This document shows positions 1,106 to 54,109 of a DNA stretch of 64,000 bases, one piece after another. The stretch is from positions 15,901,811-15,965,810 of the forward strand of contig CM040085.1 of assembly GCA_022496805.1 (NCBI GenBank). Direction: 5' to 3'. Positions within the stretch are counted from its first letter, which is position 1; every line of letters starts with the position of its first letter. The DNA comes from Pohlia nutans. Taxonomy: Eukaryota > Streptophyta > Bryopsida > Bryales > Mniaceae. The notes under the pieces are model-generated. The model was not told where the DNA came from, ran no database searches, and saw only the letters and a list, made by a program, of their open reading frames with translations. Position numbers and translations under genes: made by a program.

Positions 1106-4100
1106 ATGGGGAAAGGAGCCGGCAAAGGAGGAGGCAAATGTGCGAGCCGAGAACGATTCGCACCCTCATTGCGCACTCCTAGACTTCCTGCGCCCCGCCA
1201 TTCTGATTCGTACAAGCCCGCGGAAACATCCAGGCAGGCTGGCCGAGTGGGAGAGTCCTCTCAACCTAGCATCCGGGAGCCGTTCCTCCCCAAGGTACGT
1301 CACATGATAAATCCATACTTAAATACTGTCAATCACTAATTCAAGTGTTTCAATGAATGTCACTTCAAAACATATCGTAGCCAAGTTCTCAAATGCGCAA
1401 TGACGCAAATAACATTATGATCAGCTTTACACGATTGTAATTTTCATAAAGTCCTCGGAATGGATTATCTCCCTTCACAACTAAATTCTTTCACAGCTTT
1501 ACACGAATGTGATGTGCCAAGTCTTGGAGATCATGATGCCATTATCAGAATGTACTCATAGGTTAGCAGTTCTGGTAGTGATACAGACTGTTTAAGAATT
1601 TAAGTCTTGTCGGATACAGTATAGGCTGTCGTCACGAAAAATCAAAGAATCATGACTGTGATTAGGTCATTCTCATGATTGTTCATATTCATAAAGTCTA
1701 GGAATGGGATCGCTCCCTTCACAATTAGATTATTCACAGCTTTACACGAATGTAATATCCCAAGTCTTGCAGATCATGATGCCATTATCAGAATATTCTC
1801 ATAGGTTAGCAGTTCTGGTAGTGATCAGTCGATATGGTAAATTTAAGAATATAAGACTTGTCGGATACAGTATGGCTGTTTCACGAAAAATCAAAGATTC
1901 ATAACTATTATTAGGTCTCATGATTGTGACTTGATCATGATCATGTTCCAAAGAGCCCAGCTCAACTTGAATGTGAATTGATTTCATCGCAGAGAGTGGA
2001 GTCCTCCAAGCCTACCTTTAAGTCTTGTCAGATATCGGCTGTCGTCACGAAAAATCAAAGAATTATGACTGTGATTAGATCGTTCTCACGATTGTGAATT
2101 GATAATGATTGTCTTAACGACATTTGATGCAAAAAGCTCAGCTCAACTTGAATATGAATTGATTTCATCGCAGAGAGTGGAGTCCTCCAAGTCTACCGAA
2201 AAGGACCCATTGAAGGAAGAAGATGATGACCTGGATACGGATGTCATATTTGACCAGCAAGACACGGAATCCGAATCCCGACGCCTGCTACTGGAACGCC
2301 CACCCAGCTCCCACAGGAAGTCTGCGTTGAGTGCACGTGCACCCAAAAACGAAGGACAAAGCAATGCTGCAATGCCACTCGCTGTGCAGGAGGGTACAAC
2401 GAACATATCCAGGCCTGATTCCTCTGGCAGTACAATCATATTTCATGACGAAGAAGCATCTGAAGAATCGCTCCCCATTTCCACTCTATCCAGCACTGAA
2501 CGTGACATCAAGCCTCAACAGCTGTCACAGAGACAAGATATTCAAGCCGACGCTGCACCTCTAGGTAACAACCCTTTCAATCCTTACACTCAATCTCTCT
2601 CATTACCGCATAATTAGGATGCATTTCCAATACCTTTCCTGACTGCAACAACCTTATGCACTTCAACTAACTTATGCACTTCAACCTTCTGCACTTCAAA
2701 AACATATATATTCACACAGAAATACTAAACTTTCTTGAAAACAGAAGACACTCGAAAACTTGACGCCGCCCCATTCACATCTACGGGGCAGAGCAACGAA
2801 GTTAGCCAGAGAGCATTGCCTTTACTTGCACATCCCCCGTCTCAAGAACCGGAACCCCTCACTGAGATCAAGGGAGAACAAGAGACAACACCGACGGCAA
2901 GCTCACAAATACCCACAACTATCAGAATAGCACACGCATCTCCAGGTCACCAAACGCCCCCTAATTTGAGGACCCTAGCGGATAGTTTGGAGACCACAAC
3001 CGCAACAGAACAAGTATCTGATGAAAGTGACTTACCAACTCTTCGGTCCTCAGATACGGCTCAACCTCAAGATGGTGCACTGCCTCAATCAGGGATCCCA
3101 GTTGCTGCGTTGTCAGCAATTACTTCGAAAAGCCCTGAAACATCAATGCAGCACAAGCAAAAAGATATCCTAGAACCAGAGGTCCAGCACACGGAAGTAG
3201 ACACGACTCCATCCTCCGAATCTATCATGGCACTTGGAACACGCAGCTATGTTGAAGAAGCCTCCGTGAATGTCCACACCGACGATATCGACTTTGAAGA
3301 ACCCAGGGCTGTAGAACATCATCCATTCAATTACCCAAACCAAGACCTGACTGGAAACGACCCAGACACAAGTCTCCAACACCCTGTTCCCTTAATCACA
3401 AGCCTTGAAAAAAACAAGCGGTCAGAACAGGAGCTCCCTCCACTCCACGCTACTCAGCTGATTGACGACAAAGCCAAGCTGGCAATTGCAGTGGAGAAGG
3501 TGCCGCCGGTTGATCAGGAGCCTGAATCAACCCCAAGGGAGGCCTTGGTTAACCAGGAGGTTGCTGCTCCGGTGGCGGAGCCTGAGGCTGCACCGGAGGA
3601 GGAAGTGGCGACGCGGGATTTCGAGTTGCCGGTGGAGGACAAGGAGGAAGAGGTGGCTGCTCCGGCGGAGGAGGCCGCCCCGGTGGCTGCGGAGGCACCT
3701 GAAGCTCCTGCAGTTGAGGAGGAGAAGGTTGCTGAGGCGGCACCCGAGGTGGCGGAGGAGGAGGCACCCGCCCCGGCTGCCCCAGTTGTAGAGGAGGAGG
3801 CGGCTCCGGAGGCTGCCCCGGCGGTTGAGGAGGAAGCCAAGGAGGAGGCACCCGCAGCGGTGGAGGAGGCCCCAGTGGCTTTGGCTGCGGCGGAGGAGTC
3901 CCGGGCTGTTGAGGAGGCTGCCCCTGCCCCGGTGGCTGAGGAAGAAGAGAAGGAGGCCCCGGTTGCGGAGGAGGTTGCTGCCCCGGTGGCGGAGCCTGAG
4001 GCTGCACCGGAGGAGGAAGTGGCGACGCGGGATTTCGAGTTGCCGGTGGAGGACAAGGAGGAAGAGGTGGCTGCTCCGGCTGAGGAGGCCGCCCCGGTGG

Positions 4101-7100
4101 CTGCGGAGGCACCTGAAGCTCCTGCAGTTGAGGAGGAGAAGGTTGCTGAGGCGGCACCCGAGGTGGCGGAGGAGGAGGCACCCGCCCCGGCTGCCCCAGT
4201 TGTAGAGGAGGAGGCGGCTCCGGAGGCTGCCCCGGCGGTTGAGGAGGAAGCCAAGGAGGAGGCACCCGCAGCGGTGGAGGAGGCCCCAGTGGCTTTGGCT
4301 GCGGCGGAGGAGTCCCGGGCTGTTGAGGAGGCTGCCCCTGCCCCGGTGGCTGAGGAAGAAGAGAAGGAGGCCCCGGTTGCGGAGGAGGTTGCTGCCCCGG
4401 TGGCGGAGCCTGAGGCTGCACCGGAGGAGGAAGTGGCGACGCGGGATTTCGAGTTGCCGGTGGAGGACAAGGAGGAAGAGGTGGCTGCTCCGGCGGAGGA
4501 GGCCGCCCCGGTGGCTGCGGAGGCACCTGAAGCTCCTGCAGTTGAGGAGGAGAAGGTTGCTGAGGCGGCACCCGAGGTGGCGGAGGAGGAGGCACCCGCC
4601 CCGGCTGCCCCAGTTGTAGAGGAGGAGGCGGCTCCGGAGGCTGCCCCGGCGGTTGAGGAGGAAGCCAAGGAGGAGGCACCCGCAGCGGTGGAGGAGGCCC
4701 CAGTGGCTTTGGCTGCGGCGGAGGAGTCCCGGGCTGTTGAGGAGGCTGCCCCTGCCCCGGTGGCAGAGGAAGAAGAGAAGGAGGCCCCGGTTGCGGAGGA
4801 GGTTGCTGCCCCGGTGGCGGAGCCTGAGGCTGCACCGGAGGAGGAAGTGGCGACGCGGGATTTCGAGTTGCCGGTGGAGGACAAGGAGGAAGAGGTGGCT
4901 GCTCCGGCCGAGGAGGCCGCCCCGGTGGCTGCGGAGGCACCTGAAGCTCCTGCAGTTGAGGAGGAGAAGGTTGCTGAGGCGGCACCCGAGGTGGCGGAGG
5001 AGGAGGCACCCGCCCCGGCTGCCCCAGTTGTAGAGGAGGAGGCGGCTCCGGAGGCTGCCCCGGCGGTTGAGGAGGAAGCCAAGGAGGAGGCACCCGCAGC
5101 GGTGGAGGAGGCCCCAGTGGCTTTGGCTGCGGCGGAGGAGTCCCGGGCTGTTGAGGAGGCTGCCCCTGCCCCGGTGGCAGAGGAAGAAGAGAAGGAGGCC
5201 CCGGTTGCGGAGGAGGTTGCTCCCCCGGTGGCGGAGCCTGAGGCTGCACCGGAGGTGGAAGTGGCGACGCGGGATTTGGAGTTGCCCGTGGAGGACACGG
5301 AGGAAGAGGTGGCTGCTCCGGCTGAGGAGGCCGCCCCGGTGGCTGCGGAGGCACCTGAAGCTCCTGCAGTTGAGGAGGAGAAGGTTGCTGAGGCGGCACC
5401 CGAGGTGGCGGAGGAGGAGGCACCCGCCCCGGCTGCCCCAGTTGTAGAGGAGGAGGCGGCTCCGGAGGCTGCCCCGGCGGTTGAGGAGGAAGCCAAGGAG
5501 GAGGCACCCGCAGCGGTGGAGGAGGCCCCAGTGGCTTTGGCTGCGGCGGAGGAGTCCCGGGCTGTTGAGGAGGCTGCCCCTGCCCCGGTGGCTGAGGAAG
5601 AAGAGAAGGAGGCCCCGGTTGCGGAGGAGGTTGCTGCCCCGGTGGCGGAGCCTGAGGCTGCACCGGAGGAGGAAGTGGCGACGCGGGATTTCGAGTTGCC
5701 GGTGGAGGACAAGGAGGAAGAGGTGGCTGCTCCGGCGGAGGAGGCCGCCCCGGTGGCTGCGGAGGCACCTGAAGCTCCTGCAGTTGAGGAGGAGAAGGTT
5801 GCTGAGGCGGCACCCGAGGTGGCGGAGGAGGAGGCACCCGCCCCGGCTGCCCCAGTTGTAGAGGAGGAGGCGGCTCCGGAGGCTGCCCCGGCGGTTGAGG
5901 AGGAAGCCAAGGAGGAGGCACCCGCAGCGGTGGAGGAGGCCCCAGTGGCTTTGGCTGCGGCGGAGGAGTCCCGGGCTGTTGAGGAGGCTGCCCCTGCCCC
6001 GGTGGCTGAGGAAGAAGAGAAGGAGGCCCCGGTTGCGGAGGAGGTTGCTGCCCCGGTGGCGGAGCCTGAGGCTGCACCGGAGGAGGAAGTGGCGACGCGG
6101 GATTTCGAGTTGCCGGTGGAGGACAAGGAGGAAGAGGTGGCTGCTCCGGCGGAGGAGGCCGCCCCGGTGGCTGCGGAGGCACCTGAAGCTCCTGCAGTTG
6201 AGGAGGAGAAGGTTGCTGAGGCGGCACCCGAGGTGGCGGAGGAGGAGGCACCCGCCCCGGCTGCCCCAGTTGTAGAGGAGGAGGCGGCTCCGGAGGCTGC
6301 CCCGGCGGTTGAGGAGGAAGCCAAGGAGGAGGCACCCGCAGCGGTGGAGGAGGCCCCAGTGGCTTTGGCTGCGGCGGAGGAGTCCCGGGCTGTTGAGGAG
6401 GCTGCCCCTGCCCCGGTGGCTGAGGAAGAAGAGAAGGAGGCCCCGGTTGCGGAGGAGGTTGCTGCCCCGGTGGCGGAGCCTGAGGCTGCACCGGAGGAGG
6501 AAGTGGCGACGCGGGATTTCGAGTTGCCGGTGGAGGACAAGGAGGAAGAGGTGGCTGCTCCGGCGGAGGAGGCCGCCCCGGTGGCTGCGGAGGCACCTGA
6601 AGCTCCTGCAGTTGAGGAGGAGAAGGTTGCTGAGGCGGCACCCGAGGTGGCGGAGGAGGAGGCACCCGCCCCGGCTGCCCCAGTTGTAGAGGAGGAGGCG
6701 GCTCCGGAGGCTGCCCCGGCGGTTGAGGAGGAAGCCAAGGAGGAGGCACCCGCAGCGGTGGAGGAGGCCCCAGTGGCTTTGGCTGCGGCGGAGGAGTCCC
6801 GGGCTGTTGAGGAGGCTGCCCCTGCCCCGGTGGCAGAGGAAGAAGAGAAGGAGGCCCCGGTTGCGGAGGAGGTTGCTGCCCCGGTGGCGGAGCCTGAGGC
6901 TGCACCGGAGGTGGAAGTGGCGACGCGGGATTTCGAGTTGCCGGTGGAGGACAAGGAGGAAGAGGTGGCTGCTCCGGCTGAGGAGGCCGCCCCGGTGGCT
7001 GCGGAGGCACCTGAAGCTCCTGCAGTTGAGGAGGAGAAGGTTGCTGAGGCGGCACCCGAGGTGGCGGAGGAGGAGGCACCCGCCCCGGCTGCCCCAGTTG

Positions 7101-10100
7101 TAGAGGAGGAGGCGGCTCCGGAGGCTGCCCCGGCGGTTGAGGAGGAAGCCAAGGAGGAGGCACCCGCAGCGGTGGAGGAGGCCCCAGTGGCTTTGGCTGC
7201 GGCGGAGGAGTCCCGGGCTGTTGAGGAGGCTGCCCCTGCCCCGGTGGCTGAGGAAGAAGAGAAGGAGGCCCCGGTTGCGGAGGAGGTTGCTGCCCCGGTG
7301 GCGGAGCCTGAGGCTGCACCGGAGGAGGAAGTGGCGACGCGGGATTTCGAGTTGCCGGTGGAGGACAAGGAGGAAGAGGTGGCTGCTCCGGCGGAGGAGG
7401 CCGCCCCGGTGGCTGCGGAGGCACCTGAAGCTCCTGCAGTTGAGGAGGAGAAGGTTGCTGAGGCGGCACCCGAGGTGGCGGAGGAGGAGGCACCCGCCCC
7501 GGCTGCCCCAGTTGTAGAGGAGGAGGCGGCTCCGGAGGCTGCCCCGGCGGTTGAGGAGGAAGCCAAGGAGGAGGCACCCGCAGCGGTGGAGGAGGCCCCA
7601 GTGGCTTTGGCTGCGGCGGAGGAGTCCCGGGCTGTTGAGGAGGCTGCCCCTGCCCCGGTGGCTGAGGAAGAAGAGAAGGAGGCCCCGGTTGCGGAGGAGG
7701 TTGCTGCCCCGGTGGCGGAGCCTGAGGCTGCACCGGAGGAGGAAGTGGCGACGCGGGATTTCGAGTTGCCGGTGGAGGACAAGGAGGAAGAGGTGGCTGC
7801 TCCGGCGGAGGAGTCTGCCCCGGCGGCTGAGGAGGAAGCCAAGGAGGAGGCACCCGCAGCGGTGGAGGAGGCCCCAGTGGCTTTGGCTGCGGCGGAGGAG
7901 TCCCGGGCTGTTGAGGAGGCTGCCCCTGCCCCGGTGGCTGAGGAAGAAGAGAAGGAGGCCCCGGTTGCGGAGGAGGTTGCTGCCCCGGTGGCGGAGCCTG
8001 AGGCTGCACCGGAGGAGGAAGTGGCGACGCGGGATTTCGAGTTGCCGGTGGAGGACAAGGAGGAAGAGGTGGCTGCTCCGGCGGAGGAGGCCGCCCCGGT
8101 GGCTGCGGAGGCACCTGAAGCTCCTGCAGTTGAGGAGGAGAAGGTTGCTGAGGCGGCACCCGAGGTGGCGGAGGAGGAGGCACCCGCCCCGGCTGCCCCA
8201 GTTGTAGAGGAGGAGGCGGCTCCGGAGGCTGCCCCGGCGGTTGAGGAGGAAGCCAAGGAGGAGGCACCCGCAGCGGTGGAGGAGGCCCCAGTGGCTTTGG
8301 CTGCGGCGGAGGAGTCCCGGGCTGTTGAGGAGGCTGCCCCTGCCCCGGTGGCAGAGGAAGAAGAGAAGGAGGCCCCGGTTGCGGAGGAGGTTGCTCCCCC
8401 GGTGGCGGAGCCTGAGGCAGCACCGGAGGTGGAAGTGGCGACGCGGGATTTCGAGTTGCCCGTGGAGGACACGGAGGAAGAGGTGGCTGCTCCGGCTGAG
8501 GAGGCCGCCCCGGTGGCTGCGGAGGCACCTGAAGCTCCTGCAGTTGAGGAGGAGAAGGTTGCTGAGGCGGCACCCGAGGTGGCGGAGGAGGAGGCACCCG
8601 CCCCGGCTGCCCCAGTTGTAGAGGAGGAGGCGGCTCCGGAGGCTGCCCCGGCGGTTGAGGAGGAAGCCAAGGAGGAGGCACCCGCAGCGGTGGAGGAGGC
8701 CCCAGTGGCTTTGGCTGCGGCGGAGGAGTCCCGGGCTGTTGAGGAGGCTGCCCCTGCCCCGGTGGCTGAGGAAGAAGAGAAGGAGGCCCCGGTTGCGGAG
8801 GAGGTTGCTGCCCCGGTGGCGGAGCCTGAGGCTGCACCGGAGGAGGAAGTGGCGACGCGGGATTTCGAGTTGCCGGTGGAGGACAAGGAGGAAGAGGTGG
8901 CTGCTCCGGCGGAGGAGGCCGCCCCGGTGGCTGCGGAGGCACCTGAAGCTCCTGCAGTTGAGGAGGAGAAGGTTGCTGAGGCGGCACCCGAGGTGGCGGA
9001 GGAGGAGGCACCCGCCCCGGCTGCCCCAGTTGTAGAGGAGGAGGCGGCTCCGGAGGCTGCCCCGGCGGTTGAGGAGGAAGCCAAGGAGGAGGCACCCGCA
9101 GCGGTGGAGGAGGCCCCAGTGGCTTTGGCTGCGGCGGAGGAGTCCCGGGCTGTTGAGGAGGCTGCCCCTGCCCCGGTGGCTGAGGAAGAAGAGAAGGAGG
9201 CCCCGGTTGCGGAGGAGGTTGCTGCCCCGGTGGCGGAGCCTGAGGCTGCACCGGAGGAGGAAGTGGCGACGCGGGATTTCGAGTTGCCGGTGGAGGACAA
9301 GGAGGAAGAGGTGGCTGCTCCGGCGGAGGAGGCCGCCCCGGTGGCTGCGGAGGCACCTGAAGCTCCTGCAGTTGAGGAGGAGAAGGTTGCTGAGGCGGCA
9401 CCCGAGGTGGCGGAGGAGGAGGCACCCGCCCCGGCTGCCCCAGTTGTAGAGGAGGAGGCGGCTCCGGAGGCTGCCCCGGCGGTTGAGGAGGAAGCCAAGG
9501 AGGAGGCACCCGCAGCGGTGGAGGAGGCCCCAGTGGCTTTGGCTGCGGCGGAGGAGTCCCGGGCTGTTGAGGAGGCTGCCCCTGCCCCGGTGGCAGAGGA
9601 AGAAGAGAAGGAGGCCCCGGTTGCGGAGGAGGTTGCTGCCCCGGTGGCGGAGCCTGAGGCTGCACCGGAGGTGGAAGTGGCGACGCGGGATTTCGAGTTG
9701 CCCGTGGAGGACAAGGAGGAAGAGGTGGCTGCTCCGGCGGAGGAGGCCGCCCCGGTGGCTGCGGAGGCACCTGAAGCTCCTGCAGTTGAGGAGGAGAAGG
9801 TTGCTGAGGCGGCACCCGAGGTGGCGGAGGAGGAGGCACCCGCCCCGGCTGCCCCAGTTGTAGAGGAGGAGGCGGCTCCGGAGGCTGCCCCGGCGGTTGA
9901 GGAGGAAGCCAAGGAGGAGGCACCCGCAGCGGTGGAGGAGGCCCCAGTGGCTTTGGCTGCGGCGGAGGAGTCCCGGGCTGTTGAGGAGGCTGCCCCTGCC
10001 CCGGTGGCTGAGGAAGAAGAGAAGGAGGCCCCGGTTGCGGAGGAGGTTGCTGCCCCGGTGGCGGAGCCTGAGGCTGCACCGGAGGAGGAAGTGGCGACGC

Positions 10101-13100
10101 GGGATTTCGAGTTGCCGGTGGAGGACAAGGAGGAAGAGGTGGCTGCTCCGGCGGAGGAGGCCGCCCCGGTGGCTGCGGAGGCACCTGAAGCTCCTGCAGT
10201 TGAGGAGGAGAAGGTTGCTGAGGCGGCACCCGAGGTGGCGGAGGAGGAGGCACCCGCCCCGGCTGCCCCAGTTGTAGAGGAGGAGGCGGCTCCGGAGGCT
10301 GCCCCGGCGGTTGAGGAGGAAGCCAAGGAGGAGGCACCCGCAGCGGTGGAGGAGGCCCCAGTGGCTTTGGCTGCGGCGGAGGAGTCCCGGGCTGTTGAGG
10401 AGGCTGCCCCTGCCCCGGTGGCAGAGGAAGAAGAGAAGGAGGCCCCGGTTGCGGAGGAGGTTGCTGCCCCGGTGGCGGAGCCTGAGGCTGCACCGGAGGT
10501 GGAAGTGGCGACGCGGGATTTCGAGTTGCCGGTGGAGGACAAGGAGGAAGAGGTGGCTGCTCCGGCTGAGGAGGCCGCCCCGGTGGCTGCGGAGGCACCT
10601 GAAGCTCCTGCAGTTGAGGAGGAGAAGGTTGCTGAGGCGGCACCCGAGGTGGCGGAGGAGGAGGCACCCGCCCCGGCTGCCCCAGTTGTAGAGGAGGAGG
10701 CGGCTCCGGAGGCTGCCCCGGCGGTTGAGGAGGAAGCCAAGGAGGAGGCACCCGCAGCGGTGGAGGAGGCCCCAGTGGCTTTGGCTGCGGCGGAGGAGTC
10801 CCGGGCTGTTGAGGAGGCTGCCCCTGCCCCGGTGGCTGAGGAAGAAGAGAAGGAGGCCCGGGTTGCGGAGGAGGTTGCTGCCCCGGTGGCGGAGCCTGAG
10901 GCTGCACCGGAGGAGGAAGTGGCGACGCGGGATTTCGAGTTGCCGGTGGAGGACAAGGAGGAAGAGGTGGCTGCTCCGGCGGAGGAGGCCGCCCCGGTGG
11001 CTGCGGAGGCACCTGAAGCTCCTGCAGTTGAGGAGGAGAAGGTTGCTGAGGCGGCACCCGAGGTGGCGGAGGAGGAGGCACCCGCCCCGGCTGCCCCAGT
11101 TGTAGAGGAGGAGGCGGCTCCGGAGGCTGCCCCGGCGGTTGAGGAGGAAGCCAAGGAGGAGGCACCCGCAGCGGTGGAGGAGGCCCCAGTGGCTTTGGCT
11201 GCGGCGGAGGAGTCCCGGGCTGTTGAGGAGGCTGCCCCTGCCCCGGTGGCTGAGGAAGAAGAGAAGGAGGCCCCGGTTGCGGAGGAGGTTGCTGCCCCGG
11301 TGGCGGAGCCTGAGGCTGCACCGGAGGAGGAAGTGGCGACGCGGGATTTCGAGTTGCCGGTGGAGGACAAGGAGGAAGAGGTGGCTGCTCCGGCGGAGGA
11401 GGCCGCCCCGGTGGCTGCGGAGGCACCTGAAGCTCCTGCAGTTGAGGAGGAGAAGGTTGCTGAGGCGGCACCCGAGGTGGCGGAGGAGGAGGCACCCGCC
11501 CCGGCTGCCCCAGTTGTAGAGGAGGAGGCGGCTCCGGAGGCTGCCCCGGCGGTTGAGGAGGAAGCCAAGGAGGAGGCACCCGCAGCGGTGGAGGAGGCCC
11601 CAGTGGCTTTGGCTGCGGCGGAGGAGTCCCGGGCTGTTGAGGAGGCTGCCCCTGCCCCGGTGGCTGAGGAAGAAGAGAAGGAGGCCCCGGTTGCGGAGGA
11701 GGTTGCTGCCCCGGTGGCGGAGCCTGAGGCTGCACCGGAGGAGGAAGTGGCGACGCGGGATTTCGAGTTGCCGGTGGAGGACAAGGAGGAAGAGGTGGCT
11801 GCTCCGGCGGAGGAGTCTGCCCCGGCGGCTGAGGAGGAAGCCAAGGAGGAGGCACCCGCAGCGGTGGAGGAGGCCCCAGTGGCTTTGGCTGCGGCGGAGG
11901 AGTCCCGGGCTGTTGAGGAGGCTGCCCCTGCCCCGGTGGCTGAGGAAGAAGAGAAGGAGGCCCCGGTTGCGGAGGAGGTTGCTGCCCCGGTGGCGGAGCC
12001 TGAGGCTGCACCGGAGGAGGAAGTGGCGACGCGGGATTTCGAGTTGCCGGTGGAGGACAAGGAGGAAGAGGTGGCTGCTCCGGCGGAGGAGGCCGCCCCG
12101 GTGGCTGCGGAGGCACCTGAAGCTCCTGCAGTTGAGGAGGAGAAGGTTGCTGAGGCGGCACCCGAGGTGGCGGAGGAGGAGGCACCCGCCCCGGCTGCCC
12201 CAGTTGTAGAGGAGGAGGCGGCTCCGGAGGCTGCCCCGGCGGTTGAGGAGGAAGCCAAGGAGGAGGCACCCGCAGCGGTGGAGGAGGCCCCAGTGGCTTT
12301 GGCTGCGGCGGAGGAGTCCCGGGCTGTTGAGGAGGCTGCCCCTGCCCCGGTGGCAGAGGAAGAAGAGAAGGAGGCCCCGGTTGCGGAGGAGGTTGCTCCC
12401 CCGGTGGCGGAGCCTGAGGCAGCACCGGAGGTGGAAGTGGCGACGCGGGATTTCGAGTTGCCCGTGGAGGACACGGAGGAAGAGGTGGCTGCTCCGGCTG
12501 AGGAGGCCGCCCCGGTGGCTGCGGAGGCACCTGAAGCTCCTGCAGTTGAGGAGGAGAAGGTTGCTGAGGCGGCACCCGAGGTGGCGGAGGAGGAGGCACC
12601 CGCCCCGGCTGCCCCAGTTGTAGAGGAGGAGGCGGCTCCGGAGGCTGCCCCGGCGGTTGAGGAGGAAGCCAAGGAGGAGGCACCCGCAGCGGTGGAGGAG
12701 GCCCCAGTGGCTTTGGCTGCGGCGGAGGAGTCCCGGGCTGTTGAGGAGGCTGCCCCTGCCCCGGTGGCTGAGGAAGAAGAGAAGGAGGCCCCGGTTGCGG
12801 AGGAGGTTGCTGCCCCGGTGGCGGAGCCTGAGGCTGCACCGGAGGAGGAAGTGGCGACGCGGGATTTCGAGTTGCCGGTGGAGGACAAGGAGGAAGAGGT
12901 GGCTGCTCCGGCCGAGGAGGCCGCCCCGGTGGCTGCGGAGGCACCTGAAGCTCCTGCAGTTGAGGAGGAGAAGGTTGCTGAGGCGGCACCCGAGGTGGCG
13001 GAGGAGGAGGCACCCGCCCCGGCTGCCCCAGTTGTAGAGGAGGAGGCGGCTCCGGAGGCTGCCCCGGCGGTTGAGGAGGAAGCCAAGGAGGAGGCACCCG

Positions 13101-16100: not shown

Positions 16101-19100
16101 CGGTGGCTGCGGAGGCACCTGAAGCTCCTGCAGTTGAGGAGGAGAAGGTTGCTGAGGCGGCACCCGAGGTGGCGGAGGAGGAGGCACCCGCCCCGGCTGC
16201 CCCAGTTGTAGAGGAGGAGGCGGCTCCGGAGGCTGCCCCGGCGGTTGAGGAGGAAGCCAAGGAGGAGGCACCCGCAGCGGTGGAGGAGGCCCCAGTGGCT
16301 TTGGCTGCGGCGGAGGAGTCCCGGGCTGTTGAGGAGGCTGCCCCTGCCCCGGTGGCTGAGGAAGAAGAGAAGGAGGCCCCGGTTGCGGAGGAGGTTGCTG
16401 CCCCGGTGGCGGAGCCTGAGGCTGCACCGGAGGAGGAAGTGGCGACGCGGGATTTCGAGTTGCCGGTGGAGGACAAGGAGGAAGAGGTGGCTGCTCCGGC
16501 GGAGGAGGCCGCCCCGGTGGCTGCGGAGGCACCTGAAGCTCCTGCAGTTGAGGAGGAGAAGGTTGCTGAGGCGGCACCCGAGGTGGCGGAGGAGGAGGCA
16601 CCCGCCCCGGCTGCCCCAGTTGTAGAGGAGGAGGCGGCTCCGGAGGCTGCCCCGGCGGTTGAGGAGGAAGCCAAGGAGGAGGCACCCGCAGCGGTGGAGG
16701 AGGCCCCAGTGGCTTTGGCTGCGGCGGAGGAGTCCCGGGCTGTTGAGGAGGCTGCCCCTGCCCCGGTGGCAGAGGAAGAAGAGAAGGAGGCCCCGGTTGC
16801 GGAGGAGGTTGCTGCCCCGGTGGCGGAGCCTGAGGCTGCACCGGAGGTGGAAGTGGCGACGCGGGATTTCGAGTTGCCCGTGGAGGACAAGGAGGAAGAG
16901 GTGGCTGCTCCGGCGGAGGAGGCCGCCCCGGTGGCTGCGGAGGCACCTGAAGCTCCTGCAGTTGAGGAGGAGAAGGTTGCTGAGGCGGCACCCGAGGTGG
17001 CGGAGGAGGAGGCACCCGCCCCGGCTGCCCCAGTTGTAGAGGAGGAGGCGGCTCCGGAGGCTGCCCCGGCGGTTGAGGAGGAAGCCAAGGAGGAGGCACC
17101 CGCAGCGGTGGAGGAGGCCCCAGTGGCTTTGGCTGCGGCGGAGGAGTCCCGGGCTGTTGAGGAGGCTGCCCCTGCCCCGGTGGCTGAGGAAGAAGAGAAG
17201 GAGGCCCCGGTTGCGGAGGAGGTTGCTGCCCCGGTGGCGGAGCCTGAGGCTGCACCGGAGGAGGAAGTGGCGACGCGGGATTTCGAGTTGCCGGTGGAGG
17301 ACAAGGAGGAAGAGGTGGCTGCTCCGGCGGAGGAGGCCGCCCCGGTGGCTGCGGAGGCACCTGAAGCTCCTGCAGTTGAGGAGGAGAAGGTTGCTGAGGC
17401 GGCACCCGAGGTGGCGGAGGAGGAGGCACCCGCCCCGGCTGCCCCAGTTGTAGAGGAGGAGGCGGCTCCGGAGGCTGCCCCGGCGGTTGAGGAGGAAGCC
17501 AAGGAGGAGGCACCCGCAGCGGTGGAGGAGGCCCCAGTGGCTTTGGCTGCGGCGGAGGAGTCCCGGGCTGTTGAGGAGGCTGCCCCTGCCCCGGTGGCAG
17601 AGGAAGAAGAGAAGGAGGCCCCGGTTGCGGAGGAGGTTGCTGCCCCGGTGGCGGAGCCTGAGGCTGCACCGGAGGTGGAAGTGGCGACGCGGGATTTCGA
17701 GTTGCCCGTGGAGGACAAGGAGGAAGAGGTGGCTGCTCCGGCGGAGGAGGCCGCCCCGGTGGCTGCGGAGGCACCTGAAGCTCCTGCAGTTGAGGAGGAG
17801 AAGGTTGCTGAGGCGGCACCCGAGGTGGCGGAGGAGGAGGCACCCGCCCCGGCTGCCCCAGTTGTAGAGGAGGAGGCGGCTCCGGAGGCTGCCCCGGCGG
17901 TTGAGGAGGAAGCCAAGGAGGAGGCACCCGCAGCGGTGGAGGAGGCCCCAGTGGCTTTGGCTGCGGCGGAGGAGTCCCGGGCTGTTGAGGAGGCTGCCCC
18001 TGCCCCGGTGGCTGAGGAAGAAGAGAAGGAGGCCCCGGTTGCGGAGGAGGTTGCTGCCCCGGTGGCGGAGCCTGAGGCTGCACCGGAGGAGGAAGTGGCG
18101 ACGCGGGATTTCGAGTTGCCGGTGGAGGACAAGGAGGAAGAGGTGGCTGCTCCGGCGGAGGAGGCCGCCCCGGTGGCTGCGGAGGCACCTGAAGCTCCTG
18201 CAGTTGAGGAGGAGAAGGTTGCTGAGGCGGCACCCGAGGTGGCGGAGGAGGAGGCACCCGCCCCGGCTGCCCCAGTTGTAGAGGAGGAGGCGGCTCCGGA
18301 GGCTGCCCCGGCGGTTGAGGAGGAAGCCAAGGAGGAGGCACCCGCAGCGGTGGAGGAGGCCCCAGTGGCTTTGGCTGCGGCGGAGGAGTCCCGGGCTGTT
18401 GAGGAGGCTGCCCCTGCCCCGGTGGCAGAGGAAGAAGAGAAGGAGGCCCCGGTTGCGGAGGAGGTTGCTGCCCCGGTGGCGGAGCCTGAGGCTGCACCGG
18501 AGGTGGAAGTGGCGACGCGGGATTTCGAGTTGCCCGTGGAGGACAAGGAGGAAGAGGTGGCTGCTCCGGCGGAGGAGGCCGCCCCGGTGGCTGCGGAGGC
18601 ACCTGAAGCTCCTGCAGTTGAGGAGGAGAAGGTTGCTGAGGCGGCACCCGAGGTGGCGGAGGAGGAGGCACCCGCCCCGGCTGCCCCAGTTGTAGAGGAG
18701 GAGGCGGCTCCGGAGGCTGCCCCGGCGGTTGAGGAGGAAGCCAAGGAGGAGGCACCCGCAGCGGTGGAGGAGGCCCCAGTGGCTTTGGCTGCGGCGGAGG
18801 AGTCCCGGGCTGTTGAGGAGGCTGCCCCTGCCCCGGTGGCTGAGGAAGAAGAGAAGGAGGCCCCGGTTGCGGAGGAGGTTGCTGCCCCGGTGGCGGAGCC
18901 TGAGGCTGCACCGGAGGAGGAAGTGGCGACGCGGGATTTCGAGTTGCCGGTGGAGGACAAGGAGGAAGAGGTGGCTGCTCCGGCGGAGGAGGCCGCCCCG
19001 GTGGCTGCGGAGGCACCTGAAGCTCCTGCAGTTGAGGAGGAGAAGGTTGCTGAGGCGGCACCCGAGGTGGCGGAGGAGGAGGCACCCGCCCCGGCTGCCC

Positions 19101-22100
19101 CAGTTGTAGAGGAGGAGGCGGCTCCGGAGGCTGCCCCGGCGGTTGAGGAGGAAGCCAAGGAGGAGGCACCCGCAGCGGTGGAGGAGGCCCCAGTGGCTTT
19201 GGCTGCGGCGGAGGAGTCCCGGGCTGTTGAGGAGGCTGCCCCTGCCCCGGTGGCAGAGGAAGAAGAGAAGGAGGCCCCGGTTGCGGAGGAGGTTGCTGCC
19301 CCGGTGGCGGAGCCTGAGGCTGCACCGGAGGTGGAAGTGGCGACGCGGGATTTCGAGTTGCCGGTGGAGGACAAGGAGGAAGAGGTGGCTGCTCCGGCTG
19401 AGGAGGCCGCCCCGGTGGCTGCGGAGGCACCTGAAGCTCCTGCAGTTGAGGAGGAGAAGGTTGCTGAGGCGGCACCCGAGGTGGCGGAGGAGGAGGCACC
19501 CGCCCCGGCTGCCCCAGTTGTAGAGGAGGAGGCGGCTCCGGAGGCTGCCCCGGCGGTTGAGGAGGAAGCCAAGGAGGAGGCACCCGCAGCGGTGGAGGAG
19601 GCCCCAGTGGCTTTGGCTGCGGCGGAGGAGTCCCGGGCTGTTGAGGAGGCTGCCCCTGCCCCGGTGGCTGAGGAAGAAGAGAAGGAGGCCCGGGTTGCGG
19701 AGGAGGTTGCTGCCCCGGTGGCGGAGCCTGAGGCTGCACCGGAGGAGGAAGTGGCGACGCGGGATTTCGAGTTGCCGGTGGAGGACAAGGAGGAAGAGGT
19801 GGCTGCTCCGGCGGAGGAGGCCGCCCCGGTGGCTGCGGAGGCACCTGAAGCTCCTGCAGTTGAGGAGGAGAAGGTTGCTGAGGCGGCACCCGAGGTGGCG
19901 GAGGAGGAGGCACCCGCCCCGGCTGCCCCAGTTGTAGAGGAGGAGGCGGCTCCGGAGGCTGCCCCGGCGGTTGAGGAGGAAGCCAAGGAGGAGGCACCCG
20001 CAGCGGTGGAGGAGGCCCCAGTGGCTTTGGCTGCGGCGGAGGAGTCCCGGGCTGTTGAGGAGGCTGCCCCTGCCCCGGTGGCTGAGGAAGAAGAGAAGGA
20101 GGCCCCGGTTGCGGAGGAGGTTGCTGCCCCGGTGGCGGAGCCTGAGGCTGCACCGGAGGAGGAAGTGGCGACGCGGGATTTCGAGTTGCCGGTGGAGGAC
20201 AAGGAGGAAGAGGTGGCTGCTCCGGCGGAGGAGGCCGCCCCGGTGGCTGCGGAGGCACCTGAAGCTCCTGCAGTTGAGGAGGAGAAGGTTGCTGAGGCGG
20301 CACCCGAGGTGGCGGAGGAGGAGGCACCCGCCCCGGCTGCCCCAGTTGTAGAGGAGGAGGCGGCTCCGGAGGCTGCCCCGGCGGTTGAGGAGGAAGCCAA
20401 GGAGGAGGCACCCGCAGCGGTGGAGGAGGCCCCAGTGGCTTTGGCTGCGGCGGAGGAGTCCCGGGCTGTTGAGGAGGCTGCCCCTGCCCCGGTGGCTGAG
20501 GAAGAAGAGAAGGAGGCCCCGGTTGCGGAGGAGGTTGCTGCCCCGGTGGCGGAGCCTGAGGCTGCACCGGAGGAGGAAGTGGCGACGCGGGATTTCGAGT
20601 TGCCGGTGGAGGACAAGGAGGAAGAGGTGGCTGCTCCGGCGGAGGAGTCTGCCCCGGCGGCTGAGGAGGAAGCCAAGGAGGAGGCACCCGCAGCGGTGGA
20701 GGAGGCCCCAGTGGCTTTGGCTGCGGCGGAGGAGTCCCGGGCTGTTGAGGAGGCTGCCCCTGCCCCGGTGGCTGAGGAAGAAGAGAAGGAGGCCCCGGTT
20801 GCGGAGGAGGTTGCTGCCCCGGTGGCGGAGCCTGAGGCTGCACCGGAGGAGGAAGTGGCGACGCGGGATTTCGAGTTGCCGGTGGAGGACAAGGAGGAAG
20901 AGGTGGCTGCTCCGGCGGAGGAGGCCGCCCCGGTGGCTGCGGAGGCACCTGAAGCTCCTGCAGTTGAGGAGGAGAAGGTTGCTGAGGCGGCACCCGAGGT
21001 GGCGGAGGAGGAGGCACCCGCCCCGGCTGCCCCAGTTGTAGAGGAGGAGGCGGCTCCGGAGGCTGCCCCGGCGGTTGAGGAGGAAGCCAAGGAGGAGGCA
21101 CCCGCAGCGGTGGAGGAGGCCCCAGTGGCTTTGGCTGCGGCGGAGGAGTCCCGGGCTGTTGAGGAGGCTGCCCCTGCCCCGGTGGCTGAGGAAGAAGAGA
21201 AGGAGGCCCCGGTTGCGGAGGAGGTTGCTGCCCCGGTGGCGGAGCCTGAGGCTGCACCGGAGGAGGAAGTGGCGACGCGGGATTTCGAGTTGCCGGTGGA
21301 GGACAAGGAGGAAGAGGTGGCTGCTCCGGCTGAGGAGGCCGCCCCGGTGGCTGCGGAGGCACCTGAAGCTCCTGCAGTTGAGGAGGAGAAGGTTGCTGAG
21401 GCGGCACCCGAGGTGGCGGAGGAGGAGGCACCCGCCCCGGCTGCCCCAGTTGTAGAGGAGGAGGCGGCTCCGGAGGCTGCCCCGGCGGTTGAGGAGGAAG
21501 CCAAGGAGGAGGCACCCGCAGCGGTGGAGGAGGCCCCAGTGGCTTTGGCTGCGGCGGAGGAGTCCCGGGCTGTTGAGGAGGCTGCCCCTGCCCCGGTGGC
21601 TGAGGAAGAAGAGAAGGAGGCCCCGGTTGCGGAGGAGGTTGCTGCCCCGGTGGCGGAGCCTGAGGCTGCACCGGAGGAGGAAGTGGCGACGCGGGATTTC
21701 GAGTTGCCGGTGGAGGACAAGGAGGAAGAGGTGGCTGCTCCGGCGGAGGAGGCCGCCCCGGTGGCTGCGGAGGCACCTGAAGCTCCTGCAGTTGAGGAGG
21801 AGAAGGTTGCTGAGGCGGCACCCGAGGTGGCGGAGGAGGAGGCACCCGCCCCGGCTGCCCCAGTTGTAGAGGAGGAGGCGGCTCCGGAGGCTGCCCCGGC
21901 GGTTGAGGAGGAAGCCAAGGAGGAGGCACCCGCAGCGGTGGAGGAGGCCCCAGTGGCTTTGGCTGCGGCGGAGGAGTCCCGGGCTGTTGAGGAGGCTGCC
22001 CCTGCCCCGGTGGCTGAGGAAGAAGAGAAGGAGGCCCGGGTTGCGGAGGAGGTTGCTGCCCCGGTGGCGGAGCCTGAGGCTGCACCGGAGGAGGAAGTGG

Positions 22101-25100
22101 CGACGCGGGATTTCGAGTTGCCGGTGGAGGACAAGGAGGAAGAGGTGGCTGCTCCGGCGGAGGAGGCCGCCCTGGTGGCTGCGGAGGCACCTGAAGCTCC
22201 TGCAGTTGAGGAGGAGAAGGTTGCTGAGGCGGCACCCGAGGTGGCGGAGGAGGAGGCACCCGCCCCGGCTGCCCCAGTTGTAGAGGAGGAGGCGGCTCCG
22301 GAGGCTGCCCCGGCGGTTGAGGAGGAAGCCAAGGAGGAGGCACCCGCAGCGGTGGAGGAGGCCCCAGTGGCTTTGGCTGCGGCGGAGGAGTCCCGGGCTG
22401 TTGAGGAGGCTGCCCCTGCCCCGGTGGCTGAGGAAGAAGAGAAGGAGGCCCCGGTTGCGGAGGAGGTTGCTGCCCCGGTGGCGGAGCCTGAGGCTGCACC
22501 GGAGGAGGAAGTGGCGACGCGGGATTTCGAGTTGCCGGTGGAGGACAAGGAGGAAGAGGTGGCTGCTCCGGCGGAGGAGGCCGCCCCGGTGGCTGCGGAG
22601 GCACCTGAAGCTCCTGCAGTTGAGGAGGAGAAGGTTGCTGAGGCGGCACCCGAGGTGGCGGAGGAGGAGGCACCCGCCCCGGCTGCCCCAGTTGTAGAGG
22701 AGGAGGCGGCTCCGGAGGCTGCCCCGGCGGTTGAGGAGGAAGCCAAGGAGGAGGCACCCGCAGCGGTGGAGGAGGCCCCAGTGGCTTTGGCTGCGGCGGA
22801 GGAGTCCTGGGCTGTTGAGGAGGCTGCCCCTGCCCCGGTGGCTGAGGAAGAAGAGAAGGAGGCCCCGGTTGCGGAGGAGGTTGCTGCCCCGGTGGCGGAG
22901 CCTGAGGCTGCACCGGAGGAGGAAGTGGCGACGCGGGATTTCGAGTTGCCGGTGGAGGACAAGGAGGAAGAGGTGGCTGCTCCGGCGGAGGAGGCCGCCC
23001 CGGTGGCTGCGGAGGCACCTGAAGCTCCTGCAGTTGAGGAGGAGAAGGTTGCTGAGGCGGCACCCGAGGTGGCGGAGGAGGAGGCACCCGCCCCGGCTGC
23101 CCCAGTTGTAGAGGAGGAGGCGGCTCCGGAGGCTGCCCCGGCGGTTGAGGAGGAAGCCAAGGAGGAGGCACCCGCAGCGGTGGAGGAGGCCCCAGTGGCT
23201 TTGGCTGCGGCGGAGGAGTCCTGGGCTGTTGAGGAGGCTGCCCCTGCCCCGGTGGCTGAGGAAGAAGAGAAGGAGGCCCCGGTTGCGGAGGAGGTTGCTG
23301 CCCCGGTGGCGGAGCCTGAGGCTGCACCGGAGGAGGAAGTGGCGACGCGGGATTTCGAGTTGCCGGTGGAGGACAAGGAGGAAGAGGTGGCTGCTCCGGC
23401 GGAGGAGGCCGCCCCGGTGGCTGCGGAGGCACCTGAAGCTCCTGCAGTTGAGGAGGAGAAGGTTGCTGAGGCGGCACCCGAGGTGGCGGAGGAGGAGGCA
23501 CCCGCCCCGGCTGCCCCAGTTGTAGAGGAGGAGGCGGCTCCGGAGGCTGCCCCGGCGGTTGAGGAGGAAGCCAAGGAGGAGGCACCCGCAGCGGTGGAGG
23601 AGGCCCCAGTGGCTTTGGCTGCGGCGGAGGAGTCCCGGGCTGTTGAGGAGGCTGCCCCTGCCCCGGTGGCTGAGGAAGAAGAGAAGGAGGCCCGGGTTGC
23701 GGAGGAGGTTGCTGCCCCGGTGGCGGAGCCTGAGGCTGCACCGGAGGAGGAAGTGGCGACGCGGGATTTCGAGTTGCCGGTGGAGGACAAGGAGGAAGAG
23801 GTGGCTGCTCCGGCGGAGGAGGCCGCCCTGGTGGCTGCGGAGGCACCTGAAGCTCCTGCAGTTGAGGAGGAGAAGGTTGCTGAGGCGGCACCCGAGGTGG
23901 CGGAGGAGGAGGCACCCGCCCCGGCTGCCCCAGTTGTAGAGGAGGAGGCGGCTCCGGAGGCTGCCCCGGCGGTTGAGGAGGAAGCCAAGGAGGAGGCACC
24001 CGCAGCGGTGGAGGAGGCCCCAGTGGCTTTGGCTGCGGCGGAGGAGTCCCGGGCTGTTGAGGAGGCTGCCCCTGCCCCGGCGGCTGAGGAAGAAGAGAAG
24101 GAGGCCCCGGTTGCGGAGGAGGTTGCTGCCCCGGTGGCGGAGCCTGAGGCTGCACCGGAGGAGGAAGTGGCGACGCGGGATTTCGAGTTGCCGGTGGAGG
24201 ACAAGGAGGAAGAGGTGGCTGCTCCGGCGGAGGAGGCCGCCCCGGTGGCTGCGGAGGCACCTGAAGCTCCTGCAGTTGAGGAGGAGAAGGTTGCTGAGGC
24301 GGCACCCGAGGTGGCGGAGGAGGAGGCACCCGCCCCGGCTGCCCCAGTTGTAGAGGAGGAGGCGGCTCCGGAGGCTGCCCCGGCGGTTGAGGAGGAAGCC
24401 AAGGAGGAGGCACCCGCAGCGGTGGAGGAGGCCCCAGTGGCTTTGGCTGCGGCGGAGGAGTCCTGGGCTGTTGAGGAGGCTGCCCCTGCCCCGGTGGCTG
24501 AGGAAGAAGAGAAGGAGGCCCCGGTTGCGGAGGAGGTTGCTGCCCCGGTGGCGGAGCCTGAGGCTGCACCGGAGGAGGAAGTGGCGACGCGGGATTTCGA
24601 GTTGCCGGTGGAGGACAAGGAGGAAGAGGTGGCTGCTCCGGCGGAGGAGGCCGCCCCGGTGGCTGCGGAGGCACCTGAAGCTCCTGCAGTTGAGGAGGAG
24701 AAGGTTGCTGAGGCGGCACCCGAGGTGGCGGAGGAGGAGGCACCCGCCCCGGCTGCCCCAGTTGTAGAGGAGGAGGCGGCTCCGGAGGCTGCCCCGGCGG
24801 TTGAGGAGGAAGCCAAGGAGGAGGCACCCGCAGCGGTGGAGGAGGCCCCAGTGGCTTTGGCTGCGGCGGAGGAGTCCTGGGCTGTTGAGGAGGCTGCCCC
24901 TGCCCCGGTGGCTGAGGAAGAAGAGAAGGAGGCCCCGGTTGCGGAGGAGGTTGCTGCCCCGGTGGCGGAGCCTGAGGCTGCACCGGAGGAGGAAGTGGCG
25001 ACGCGGGATTTCGAGTTGCCGGTGGAGGACAAGGAGGAAGAGGTGGCTGCTCCGGCGGAGGAGGCCGCCCCGGTGGCTGCGGAGGCACCTGAAGCTCCTG

Positions 25101-28100
25101 CAGTTGAGGAGGAGAAGGTTGCTGAGGCGGCACCCGAGGTGGCGGAGGAGGAGGCACCCGCCCCGGCTGCCCCAGTTGTAGAGGAGGAGGCGGCTCCGGA
25201 GGCTGCCCCGGCGGTTGAGGAGGAAGCCAAGGAGGAGGCACCCGCAGCGGTGGAGGAGGCCCCAGTGGCTTTGGCTGCGGCGGAGGAGTCCTGGGCTGTT
25301 GAGGAGGCTGCCCCTGCCCCGGTGGCTGAGGAAGAAGAGAAGGAGGCCCCGGTTGCGGAGGAGGTTGCTGCCCCGGTGGCGGAGCCTGAGGCAGCACCGG
25401 AGGTGGAAGTGGCGACGCGGGATTTCGAGTTGCCCGTGGAGGACACGGAGGAAGAGGTGGCTGCTCCGGCTGAGGAGGCCGCCCCGGTGGCTGCGGAGGC
25501 ACCTGAAGCTCCTGCAGTTGAGGAGGAGAAGGTTGCTGAGGCGGCACCCGAGGTGGCGGAGGAGGAGGCACCCGCCCCGGCTGCCCCAGTTGTAGAGGAG
25601 GAGGCGGCTCCGGAGGCTGCCCCGGCGGTTGAGGAGGAAGCCAAGGAGGAGGCACCCGCAGCGGTGGAGGAGGCCCCAGTGGCTTTGGCTGCGGCGGAGG
25701 AGTCCCGGGCTGTTGAGGAGGCTGCCCCTGCCCCGGTGGCTGAGGAAGAAGAGAAGGAGGCCCCGGTTGCGGAGGAGGTTGCTGCCCCGGTGGCGGAGCC
25801 TGAGGCTGCACCGGAGGAGGAAGTGGCGACGCGGGATTTCGAGTTGCCGGTGGAGGACAAGGAGGAAGAGGTGGCTGCTCCGGCTGAGGAGGCCCCCCGG
25901 TGGCTGCGGAGGCACCTGAAGCTCCTGCAGTTGAGGAGGAGAAGGTTGCTGAGGCGGCACCCGAGGTGGCGGAGGAGGAGGCACCCGCCCCGGCTGCCCC
26001 AGTTGTAGAGGAGGAGGCGGCTCCGGAGGCTGCCCCGGCGGTTGAGGAGGAAGCCAAGGAGGAGGCACCCGCAGCGGTGGAGGAGGCCCCAGTGGCTTTG
26101 GCTGCGGCGGAGGAGTCCCGGGCTGTTGAGGAGGCTGCCCCTGCCCCGGTGGCTGAGGAAGAAGAGAAGGAGGCCCCGGTTGCGGAGGAGGTTGCTGCCC
26201 CGGTGGCGGAGCCTGAGGCTGCACCGGAGGAGGAAGTGGCGACGCGGGATTTCGAGTTGCCGGTGGAGGACAAGGAGGAAGAGGTGGCTGCTCCGGCGGA
26301 GGAGGCCGCGCCGGTGGCTGCGGAGGCACCTGAAGCTCCTGCAGTTGAGGAGGAGAAGGTTGCTGAGGCGGCACCCGAGGTGGCGGAGGAGGAGGCACCC
26401 GCCCCGGCTGCCCCAGTTGTAGAGGAGGAGGCGGCTCCGGAGGCTGCCCCGGCGGTTGAGGAGGAAGCCAAGGAGGAGGCACCCGCAGTGGTGGAGGAGG
26501 CCCCAGTGGCTTTGGCTGCGGCGGAGGAGTCCCGGGCTGTTGAGGAGGCTGCCCCTGCCCCGGTGGCTGAGGAAGAAGAGAAGGAGGCCCCGGTTGCGGA
26601 GGAGGTTGCTGCCCCGGTGGCGGAGGAGGTTGCTGCCCCGGTGGCGGAGCCTGAGGCTGCACCGGAGGAGGAAGTGGCGACGCGGGATTTCGAGTTGCCG
26701 GTGGAGGACAAGGAGGAAGAGGTGGCTGCTCCGGCGGAGGAGGCCGCCCCGGTGGCTGCGGAGGCACCTGAAGCTCCTGCAGTTGAGGAGGAGAAGGTTG
26801 CTGAGGCGGCACCCGAGGTGGCGGAGGAGGAGGCACCCGCCCCGGCTGCCCCAGTTGTAGAGGAGGAGGCGGCTCCGGAGGCTGCCCCGGCGGTTGAGGA
26901 GGAAGCCAAGGAGGAGGCACCCGCAGCGGTGGAGGAGGCCCCAGTGGCTGTGACTGGGCCTACCCCATTTGGCGGGGAAGTGGCTCCAGAGTTGAATGTT
27001 AATTCCTGGAGATTATTCAAGAAGGAAATTGATAGGGAGGGAGTCCTTGCTTTGGAGTCGGCTCCCTTACCTGTACCAGTTGTTGGTTCGGGTGAGTCGG
27101 CCACGACTGTTGAAGGGGAGGAGTTGCCATCGGCCATCAGTGTGGAGTTGGCGCCCCCTGTTTCGGTAGCTGATCAGGTGGCCTTCGTGTCACCTGGGTC
27201 TGAGGAGGCGGTGGCACCTGAGGCGGCTCGGGGTTCGAATGTTTCTGAAGCCCATGATTCTGGTACTGGTGGTGGCAGGAGCTATGTTGATGATTCTGCT
27301 GTTAATGTCCATAGTTTGGATGGAGAGTTTGATCATGTTGATCCTGGGAGTGCTGATGTGAGTGTGGGGGATAGTGAACCGGATGCGGCTGTGGTGTTGA
27401 AGGGGAATGATAATGTATCTGCTGATTTGAGTTTGGTTGCGGGGGATGAGGGTGACGCTGTATCACCTGGTTATGTGAATGTTGATCATGTTTCTTCGGA
27501 TGAATGGGAACTTGTTGCAGAAGATTCGGATGCTGTTGGTGAGTCTGCTTCTTCGGTCACCCCTGCTTTGTGTGATCGTTCTCTAGATGGAGGAGTATCT
27601 AGTTCTGATGCTCATGATTCCTCTTCCGCTGATTTTGTTGCGGTTCCTTCGGGACTTACGTCGATTTCGAGATTATCAGAATGGGAGATTGTGAGGAGTG
27701 GAGGTTTTTCGTCAGTGAGAGGTGACGGTTCAACGGTGGATGGTGTGAGTAGTGGATGTGGTTCTTCTGCGATAGGTATCAGTTCCTCGGAGTATGATGT
27801 GCGAAGTGGAAGTGGTTCGTCAGTGAAAGATGGCAGTTCTTCGGATGATGATGTGGTAGTGAAGCACTCTGCTGTTTTATCTGATGTAGAAGCTGTTGAA
27901 GTTCGGCAATCTGGTGTGGACGATTCCATTCTTCCTACGGGTACCGACGTCCATAGTCGGGATTTTTCTCCGGCTGTACAGAATGTCATCGCTGAGCCTG
28001 ATGTTCGGTGTGAAGTAGTTGCTGAACCCAAGTCAACTGATGCCGACGAGGTTGTGAATGTTTGGAACCTGAAGTACTTCAAGAAAAGACCTCTGACGGT

Positions 28101-43640: not shown

Positions 43641-44089
43641 AACAACGCATAAAAATAATCCCCACTTCAACCTCAATAACCTCTACACTAATCTTTCTTT
43701 GTTTTCCACCACTATCTTTCACTAAAGAAACAATAATATATTTTCTCCCTAGATTTTTCTACATACACAACTAGAAAATCTTCCTTCACTTCCCCAATTC
43801 TCACACCAAAAAACCTCAATACAAAGTTCTAGATCTAGATCTAGAAATTCTAACGTCTCTCTCTCCACAAGCTCATACACACTAACTAACTGGCTCACAA
43901 CTCATCAACAGGGGTGGGATTCAAAATCCCACCCCAAAGCTACATCCATCCAATTAGCGAAATTCATCCACCAATTGTCATCCATGGAACCCTAGTTCCA
44001 TCACCCACGAAACTCCATCTTTGCCCAAGGAATACAAAGAGTCTACCCTAACTTGCAAAGAGAGTAACAAGCCCACTTAGACCACGGAC

Positions 44090-49946: not shown

Positions 49947-54109
<4,163 letters not shown>

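Follow-up and report, generated by a model that had tools for sequence, protein, structure and literature searches.

The PEVK segment of titin belongs to the entropic-spring regions: it is very long, rich in glutamate, proline and valine, expected to be unfolded and contained within a giant protein. In the zinc-finger array of PRDM9, a coding minisatellite, an in-frame unit turns over rapidly and its copies are homogenised. Proteins with LC3-interacting regions or ATG8-interacting motifs (LIR/AIM) carry short peptides with acidic neighbours, such as DLEDEWEVI in TECPR2, ESDWVAVRP in JMY and EDEWVNV in PLEKHM1 (PMC5538626). Separately, substitutions have been reported to cluster within hundreds of bases of repeats, and error-prone synthesis was proposed (PMC3114760, PMC3681665). 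Here we describe a gene of the moss Pohlia nutans that resembles each of these systems in part. It lies in C1:15901811-15965810, a stretch of 64,000 nucleotides that we call the window. The published genome has 698.20 Mb on 22 chromosomes, with 313 and elsewhere 362 scaffolds given (PMC9247546). Our searches covered 697.8 Mb in 332 contigs.

The moss almost certainly holds a family of four very long genes, coding status included, built on one strongly acidic repeat. The repeat units are near-identical among copies in two genes (C1, in the window, and C2) and degenerate in the other two (C15 and C16). Proteins longer than 7,000 residues in which a single near-identical acidic unit makes up most of the chain would probably count among the largest that land plants have. 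Since the set includes an intact homeologue and an older pair, the evolution of such arrays becomes measurable. What can be measured is separate homogenisation since a duplication about 6 million years ago (PMC9247546), retention of the frame, apparent sharing of units between loci and divergence of the flanks.

A coding tandem array and its four-gene family

An earlier note, made from the letters of the window, had described 57 periods of a 414-bp (138-residue) unit in a single exon. Parsing the array bore this out. The array spans 3557..26949 on the forward strand (the start can be read as 3555 or 3557, the end as about 26950), with partial edges of 21 bp at the 5' end and about 303 bp at the 3' end. 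The periods are 43 units of exactly 414 bp, four of 276 bp, four pairs of 828 bp (eight units, with a point change in the anchor), one of 413 bp and one of 438 bp. Relative to the consensus, the 43 exact-length units are 98.8-100% identical (mean 99.7%) and represent 13 distinct sequences. Copies agree even at synonymous sites, as had been noted, which indicates recent homogenisation. The short unit at 7718..7993 arose by a 138-bp internal deletion, and the three others (11720-11995, 14894-15169 and 20552-20827) have identical differences. The same pair of variant units comes directly after three of these four. The common differences and the recurring pair indicate that multi-unit blocks were duplicated. 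The 438-bp unit (26209..26646) contains a 24-bp in-frame duplication.

We considered whether the array might be falsely long. The assembly was made with hifiasm from HiFi reads averaging 13.73 kb, followed by Pilon polishing (PMC9247546). The longest exact repeat within the array is 4,793 bp. Since exact repeats are shorter than the mean read, the array length is credible, short of proof.

The unit has the composition first described: 44 glutamates, 45 alanines, one aromatic residue (F) and a charge of -40. It further holds 19 prolines and 17 valines. The unit differs from titin PEVK in its few lysines (4/138), its charge and its near-identical DNA copies in one exon. It differs from the PRDM9 type of minisatellite in having 57 units of 414 bp, a probably disordered product and hints that units have moved between loci of different chromosome pairs.

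Unique terminal parts and clean splicing had also been claimed, and a four-exon model on the forward strand, with GT..AG introns and a layout matching the C2 homeologue, agrees. Exon 1 (1106..1294) begins MGKGAGKGGGKCASRER... and encodes a basic N-terminus; a related exon 1 occurs in C15 and C16. Exon 2 (2174..2564) is placed by the splice model and by comparison of C1 with C2. Exon 3 (2745..28306) contains the unique N part, the array and the unique C part; its frame is broken once, at 25894/5, and its C2 counterpart is open throughout. Exon 4 (28425..28618) ends in TAA and is also found in C2. Intron 1 carries diverged direct repeats (1408-2197); the acceptor region of exon 2 (2125-2197) has a 73-nt lookalike at 1944-2016, a potential decoy splice site.

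As read, the array does not keep a single frame for about 7,800 residues, contrary to the earlier note. The frame holds 7,445 array residues (3557-25893) and is then shifted by a one-base deletion in unit 52 (25894..25895), where GAGGCCGCCCCGG reads GAGGCCCCCCGG and a G is missing. If the frameshift is real, a stop codon follows at 26006..26008, the protein as read is 7,947 residues long and the unique C-terminus is cut off. A different frame, open from 25888 to 28374, holds the last 350 or so array residues together with the unique C part. The computed charge of the array is about -2,255, of which -2,154 precedes the frameshift and about -101 follows it.

Genome searches defined the family. 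The unique N part found a homeologue on C2, distant relatives on C15 and C16 and three further matches at E >2. The unique C part found C1, C2 and two weak matches on C16. A stretch of C15 exon 2 found C15, C16 and one stop-containing match at E 0.7. For the unit, all 147 matches at E<=0.001 fell inside the four genes; this total is a lower bound, as 150 of 183 candidates were scored. The C2 homeologue is intact, with 7,474 residues, a charge of -1,817, four exons spliced as in C1 (5156-5344, 6233-6626, 6790-28440 and 28556-28746 of the fetched stretch) and one terminal stop. Its unit is 396 bp; 31 exact-length units have a mean identity of 99.3% to their consensus, and the array is about 19 kb compared with about 23 kb in C1. 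Full-length C2 units share 86-90% amino-acid identity with the C1 unit. Synteny between C1 and C2 extends past the gene and takes in a TGS1-like neighbour. Pohlia nutans is reported to have undergone a recent whole-genome duplication at a synonymous divergence (Ks) of 0.11 (5.85 million years ago), with most adjacent chromosomes syntenic (PMC9247546). C15 and C16 form an older pair, with stop-to-stop exon-3 frames of 2,957 and 3,144 residues that hold degenerate copies of the C1 unit.

The statement that no family is known for the unit stands for the profile and structure databases searched and fails for the genome itself, where three relatives share it. No Pfam family matched the N part, C part or unit at E<=1, which includes the immunoglobulin and fibronectin domains of titin. 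NCBIfam gave no family for the three parts tried, and the PDB sequence search gave no match for the C part (E<=1) or two units (E<=0.01). A bacterial or viral origin was rejected: no relative was confirmed, either for the unit in genome_contigs or for the C part in viral_contigs. Among the literature matches listed no publication on this gene was found, which does not prove absence.

That the array belongs to a real gene and is not satellite DNA, as the earlier note held, is supported by the intact same-exon homeologue and by insertions and deletions whose lengths are mostly divisible by three. When the C1 and C2 arrays are compared, 112 of 117 gaps have such lengths, although these are not independent because units are copies of one another. 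The fractions are 115/155 for C15 versus C16 exon 3 and 84/105 for C15 exon 3 versus C1 units. In control sequence they are 33/120 (C1/C2 right flank, mostly noncoding) and 5/28 and 2/8 (C15/C16 flanks). A noncoding satellite would keep no frame and tolerate gaps of any length; we rejected it, as gaps are mostly multiples of three and C2 is open for 7,474 codons. Retention of the frame almost everywhere despite fast recopying indicates a real, fast-evolving gene family, not junk DNA.

Three antisense frames are also open. We rejected antisense genes, since 33% of codon-order shuffles of the unit (n=2,000) lack an antisense stop; the open frames are unremarkable given the codon make-up. A G-quadruplex driver was likewise rejected: the unit has 6 two-tetrad starts, compared with 5.2 on average when its codon order is shuffled (n=300).

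Possible role of the protein

The plain reading of so acidic an array, offered already from the letters alone, would be a charge polymer or spacer. In our reading, the locus is a coding minisatellite whose product, a giant disordered polyanion, would serve as an extended scaffold or spacer with docking motifs. We hold this whole reading tentatively. An extended polyanionic scaffold or spacer is the likeliest role, although, taken on its own, possible rather than probable. Briefly, selection would maintain the frame of the array. The protein would be a very long extended polyelectrolyte of Glu, Ala, Pro and Val, the array may display a per-unit motif many times, and the unique ends would supply short aromatic docking motifs (W-x-x-V, LIR/AIM-like; NSWxxFKxEI). 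The sequences demonstrate the family, its arrays, the kept frame, homogenisation, the youth of the units and the gradient in the flanks; expression, disorder in the cell, scaffold function and ATG8 binding are what we infer.

The candidate docking motifs lie in the unique ends. NSWRLFKKEI (27001..27030, forward strand) stands at the array border, and C15 and C16 carry three NSW[RT]SF motifs each. DEWELV (27499..27516) and SEWEIV (27676..27693), both LIR/AIM-like and on the same strand, are conserved in C2. C15 and C16 carry DNWEMV, EWISV or EWVSV, and DYVLL. Hence, the core [W/F/Y]-x-x-[L/I/V] with acidic context is present in both gene pairs; it is a short pattern that also arises by chance. 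Compared with shuffled sequence, tryptophan cores are enriched in the C1 C part (2 versus 0.23 expected, P 0.02) and the C15 N part (2 versus 0.10, P 0.0035). The cores and their acidic neighbours resemble those of PLEKHM1, TECPR2 and JMY, and EWISV and EWVSV fit the GABARAP-interaction motif (GIM) form (PMC5538626). The moss motifs differ in being known from sequence alone, and the rest of the protein has no known relation to those proteins. Perhaps the protein could bind ATG8 through its W-x-x-V motifs. Islands such as DEWELVAE, SRLSEWEIVRSG and LKYFKKRPLTVVAKNP are kept entire.

The array itself repeats a motif in each unit. Its first copy is VATRDFELPVEDKEEE (3605..3652, forward strand), and 58 copies were counted in the C1 gene. 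In the older arrays the motif reads PEVATREFELPVEDKEEE. There, across 19 C15/C16 units, its ratio of nonsynonymous to synonymous polymorphism (pN/pS) is 0.23, compared with 0.36-0.59 in the three blocks after it. Selection on the motif is possible, judging by these ratios.

Several observations weigh against the scaffold reading. The block directly before the motif has a pN/pS of 1.83 in the same 19 units, with few synonymous changes. In the young arrays, motif variants are no rarer than variants elsewhere: by position, 3 of 8 nonsynonymous variants in C1 (E8V, F15L, K22T) and 6 of 26 in C2 fall in the motif. P16L alone is in 7 of 31 C2 units, and the C2 consensus motif reads VATREFGWPVEEAKEEE. 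This recount lowered our confidence in the reading from somewhat above even to somewhat below it. Variants within the C1 array (4 synonymous, 8 nonsynonymous) and the C2 array (12 and 26) look neutral, about a quarter of unit sites being synonymous. Constraint on the flanks is weak, with a nonsynonymous to synonymous rate ratio (dN/dS) between C1 and C2 of 0.84 in exon 2 and of 0.74 and 0.64 in the unique parts of exon 3 (0.08 in exon 1, from five changes), and 0.55-0.76 between C15 and C16. In the C15/C16 exon-3 comparison 40 of 155 gaps are not multiples of three, probably as alignment artefacts. The tryptophan test was made after the motifs had been seen; the broader [W/F/Y] pattern gives P 0.019 in the C1 C part and 0.10 in the C15 N part, with none in the C1 N part. 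The protein is probably disordered, but the support from AlphaFold is weak: without an alignment, two units had a mean predicted local distance difference test score (pLDDT) of 42.5, with one short helix each, and the C part scored 34.9. Finally, the frameshift, if real, would remove the C-terminal motifs of the C1 copy.

A rival reading is passive filler. Here, the array would be a neutral coding minisatellite in a disordered linker, its length and sequence irrelevant, in frame only because frameshifts lose the C-terminus. Near-neutral array variants, motif included, agree with this, as do a roughly 2.5-fold difference in exon-3 frame length between the gene pairs and a motif spacing that differs between C15 and C16. 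Against it stand the motif block of the older arrays, with its reduced pN/pS, and the retention of long acidic arrays in all four genes. We regard filler as a serious possibility that nonetheless falls short of probable.

The unit-52 deletion raises a question about the C1 copy in particular. A premature stop well before the last exon junction is expected to trigger nonsense-mediated decay, and the stop lies about 2.3 kb upstream of that junction. Hence, C1 could be a recent pseudogene of an active family, with its message degraded or its product lacking the C-terminus, and the C2 homeologue could cover its function. However, the lesion is single in about 7,950 codons, the frame after it is open into exon 4 and the islands downstream are conserved with C2. 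Furthermore, an assembly of HiFi reads polished with short reads (PMC9247546) might retain or introduce an error of this kind where array units are nearly identical. We consider a pseudogene possible and lean against it.

Exchange between loci and divergence beside the array

The unit is a multiple of three, stays in frame and is more alike within a locus than between loci, as in a coding minisatellite under concerted evolution. Unequal exchange and gene conversion would keep copies near-identical within each locus and may at some time have carried units between loci. Synonymous divergence (dS) between C1 and C2 units is 0.12, near the published duplication peak. For C1 versus C16 units it is 0.17-0.20 (four units) and for C1 versus C15 0.20-0.29 (five units). 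Between C1 and C16, synonymous sites of exon 1 are nearly saturated (dS 2.7, proportion of synonymous differences 0.73), and the array-border block gives 0.72. Hence, the gene pairs appear to have parted long before the units took their present form, which suggests that units passed between loci by ectopic exchange at some time preceding the last genome duplication. Alternatively, the low values could reflect constraint on synonymous sites of the unit.

Each side of the array has a single RSYVxxxxVNVH motif, as though the two gene ends had begun as duplicates of each other. Before the array it reads RSYVEEASVNVH (3242..3277, forward strand) in C1 and RSYVEEASVNVD in C2; the close copy after the array is RSYVDDSAVNVH (27277..27312, forward strand), read from translations and C1/C2 comparison.

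Beside the array, on the left as on the right, the homeologues have a synonymous divergence raised five- to six-fold. In the left flank (3057..3556) dS is 0.52 in the 54 codons adjoining the array, and in the right flank (26957..27456) 0.66. It drops to 0.08 (left) and 0.07 (right) about 220 codons away; still farther to the right the values are scattered (0.03, 0.22, 0.20, 0.32), and a TGS1-like exon gives 0.10. Nucleotide divergence is 26-34% beside the array. Over the remaining gene sequence, counted from intron 1, it is about 7-18%, and in the TGS1 block 3.6% (160/4,464). Fourfold sites differ at 25 of 69 positions within 108 codons of the array, compared with 18 of 250 in farther codons and exons 1-2 (Fisher P 1.5e-8), a test that omits the middle bins (5/18, 11/47). 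The less homogenised C15/C16 arrays have no gradient on the left and no clear gradient on the right, where one 100-bp bin is divergent and the alignment is lost beyond the gene.

This concentration of substitutions recalls repeat-associated mutagenesis (PMC3114760, PMC3681665). It differs in being read from homeologue divergence around coding arrays of 19 and 23 kb, and in a spectrum that does not stand out. We rejected a distinct mutation spectrum beside the array, since transition shares (47/109 and 40/111) are not distinctive within the gene (77/183 and 55/135 farther away; 89/160 in the TGS1 block).

Conversion with a diverged donor locus, in place of local mutation, could also raise divergence beside the array. 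Over about 160 bases at the right border, C1 is slightly nearer C16 (72.0%) than C2 (68.5%). However, the left border has the same gradient with no counterpart in C15/C16 translations, judged by eye, and the border block shares only 63-72% with C15/C16, where a recent donor would leave near-identity. We consider conversion unlikely overall, but a serious rival at the right border.

Remaining alternatives and neighbourhood

An electrostatic brush or stress-protective polyanion, acting in hydration or in buffering of ions or basic proteins, would give the repeated motif no docking role. This agrees with about -40 per unit, -1,817 for the C2 protein, the E/A/P/V make-up and a host that is probably an Antarctic moss (PMC9247546). 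A charge role alone does not predict the conserved aromatic islands in the ends, and we think the brush improbable. Least of all do we favour a selfish coding satellite that spreads between paralogues, homogenises them and raises mutation of the gene ends, while the host uses the polyanion as a multivalent ATG8-binding scaffold; we regard this combination as very improbable.

RNA families and tRNAs gave no match within the window at the thresholds used. Downstream of the gene, an inverted-repeat element (29077-29684) with arm pairs of 83 and 42 nt is missing at the matching place in C2, where the flanks join with an overlap of about 5 bp. It is a MITE-like (miniature inverted-repeat transposable element) insertion, probably made after the homeologues parted. 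A fragment at 46982-47413 on the reverse strand resembles a DDE_3 (Tc1/mariner-type) transposase (E 2.3e-05, below the Pfam cut-off) and is possibly linked to this element. Between them, a GC-richer stretch (42737-43771) with overlapping frames on both strands precedes a 13-bp AT-rich tandem repeat (44119-44789). In the TGS1-like gene (51262-53356, reverse strand), syntenic on C2, one exon resembles a WW domain and a further part the beginning of an RNA cap guanine-N2 methyltransferase; neither match reaches its Pfam cut-off. Two RING-finger genes follow on the reverse strand (58606-59022 and 60550-61044), with similar genes on C2.

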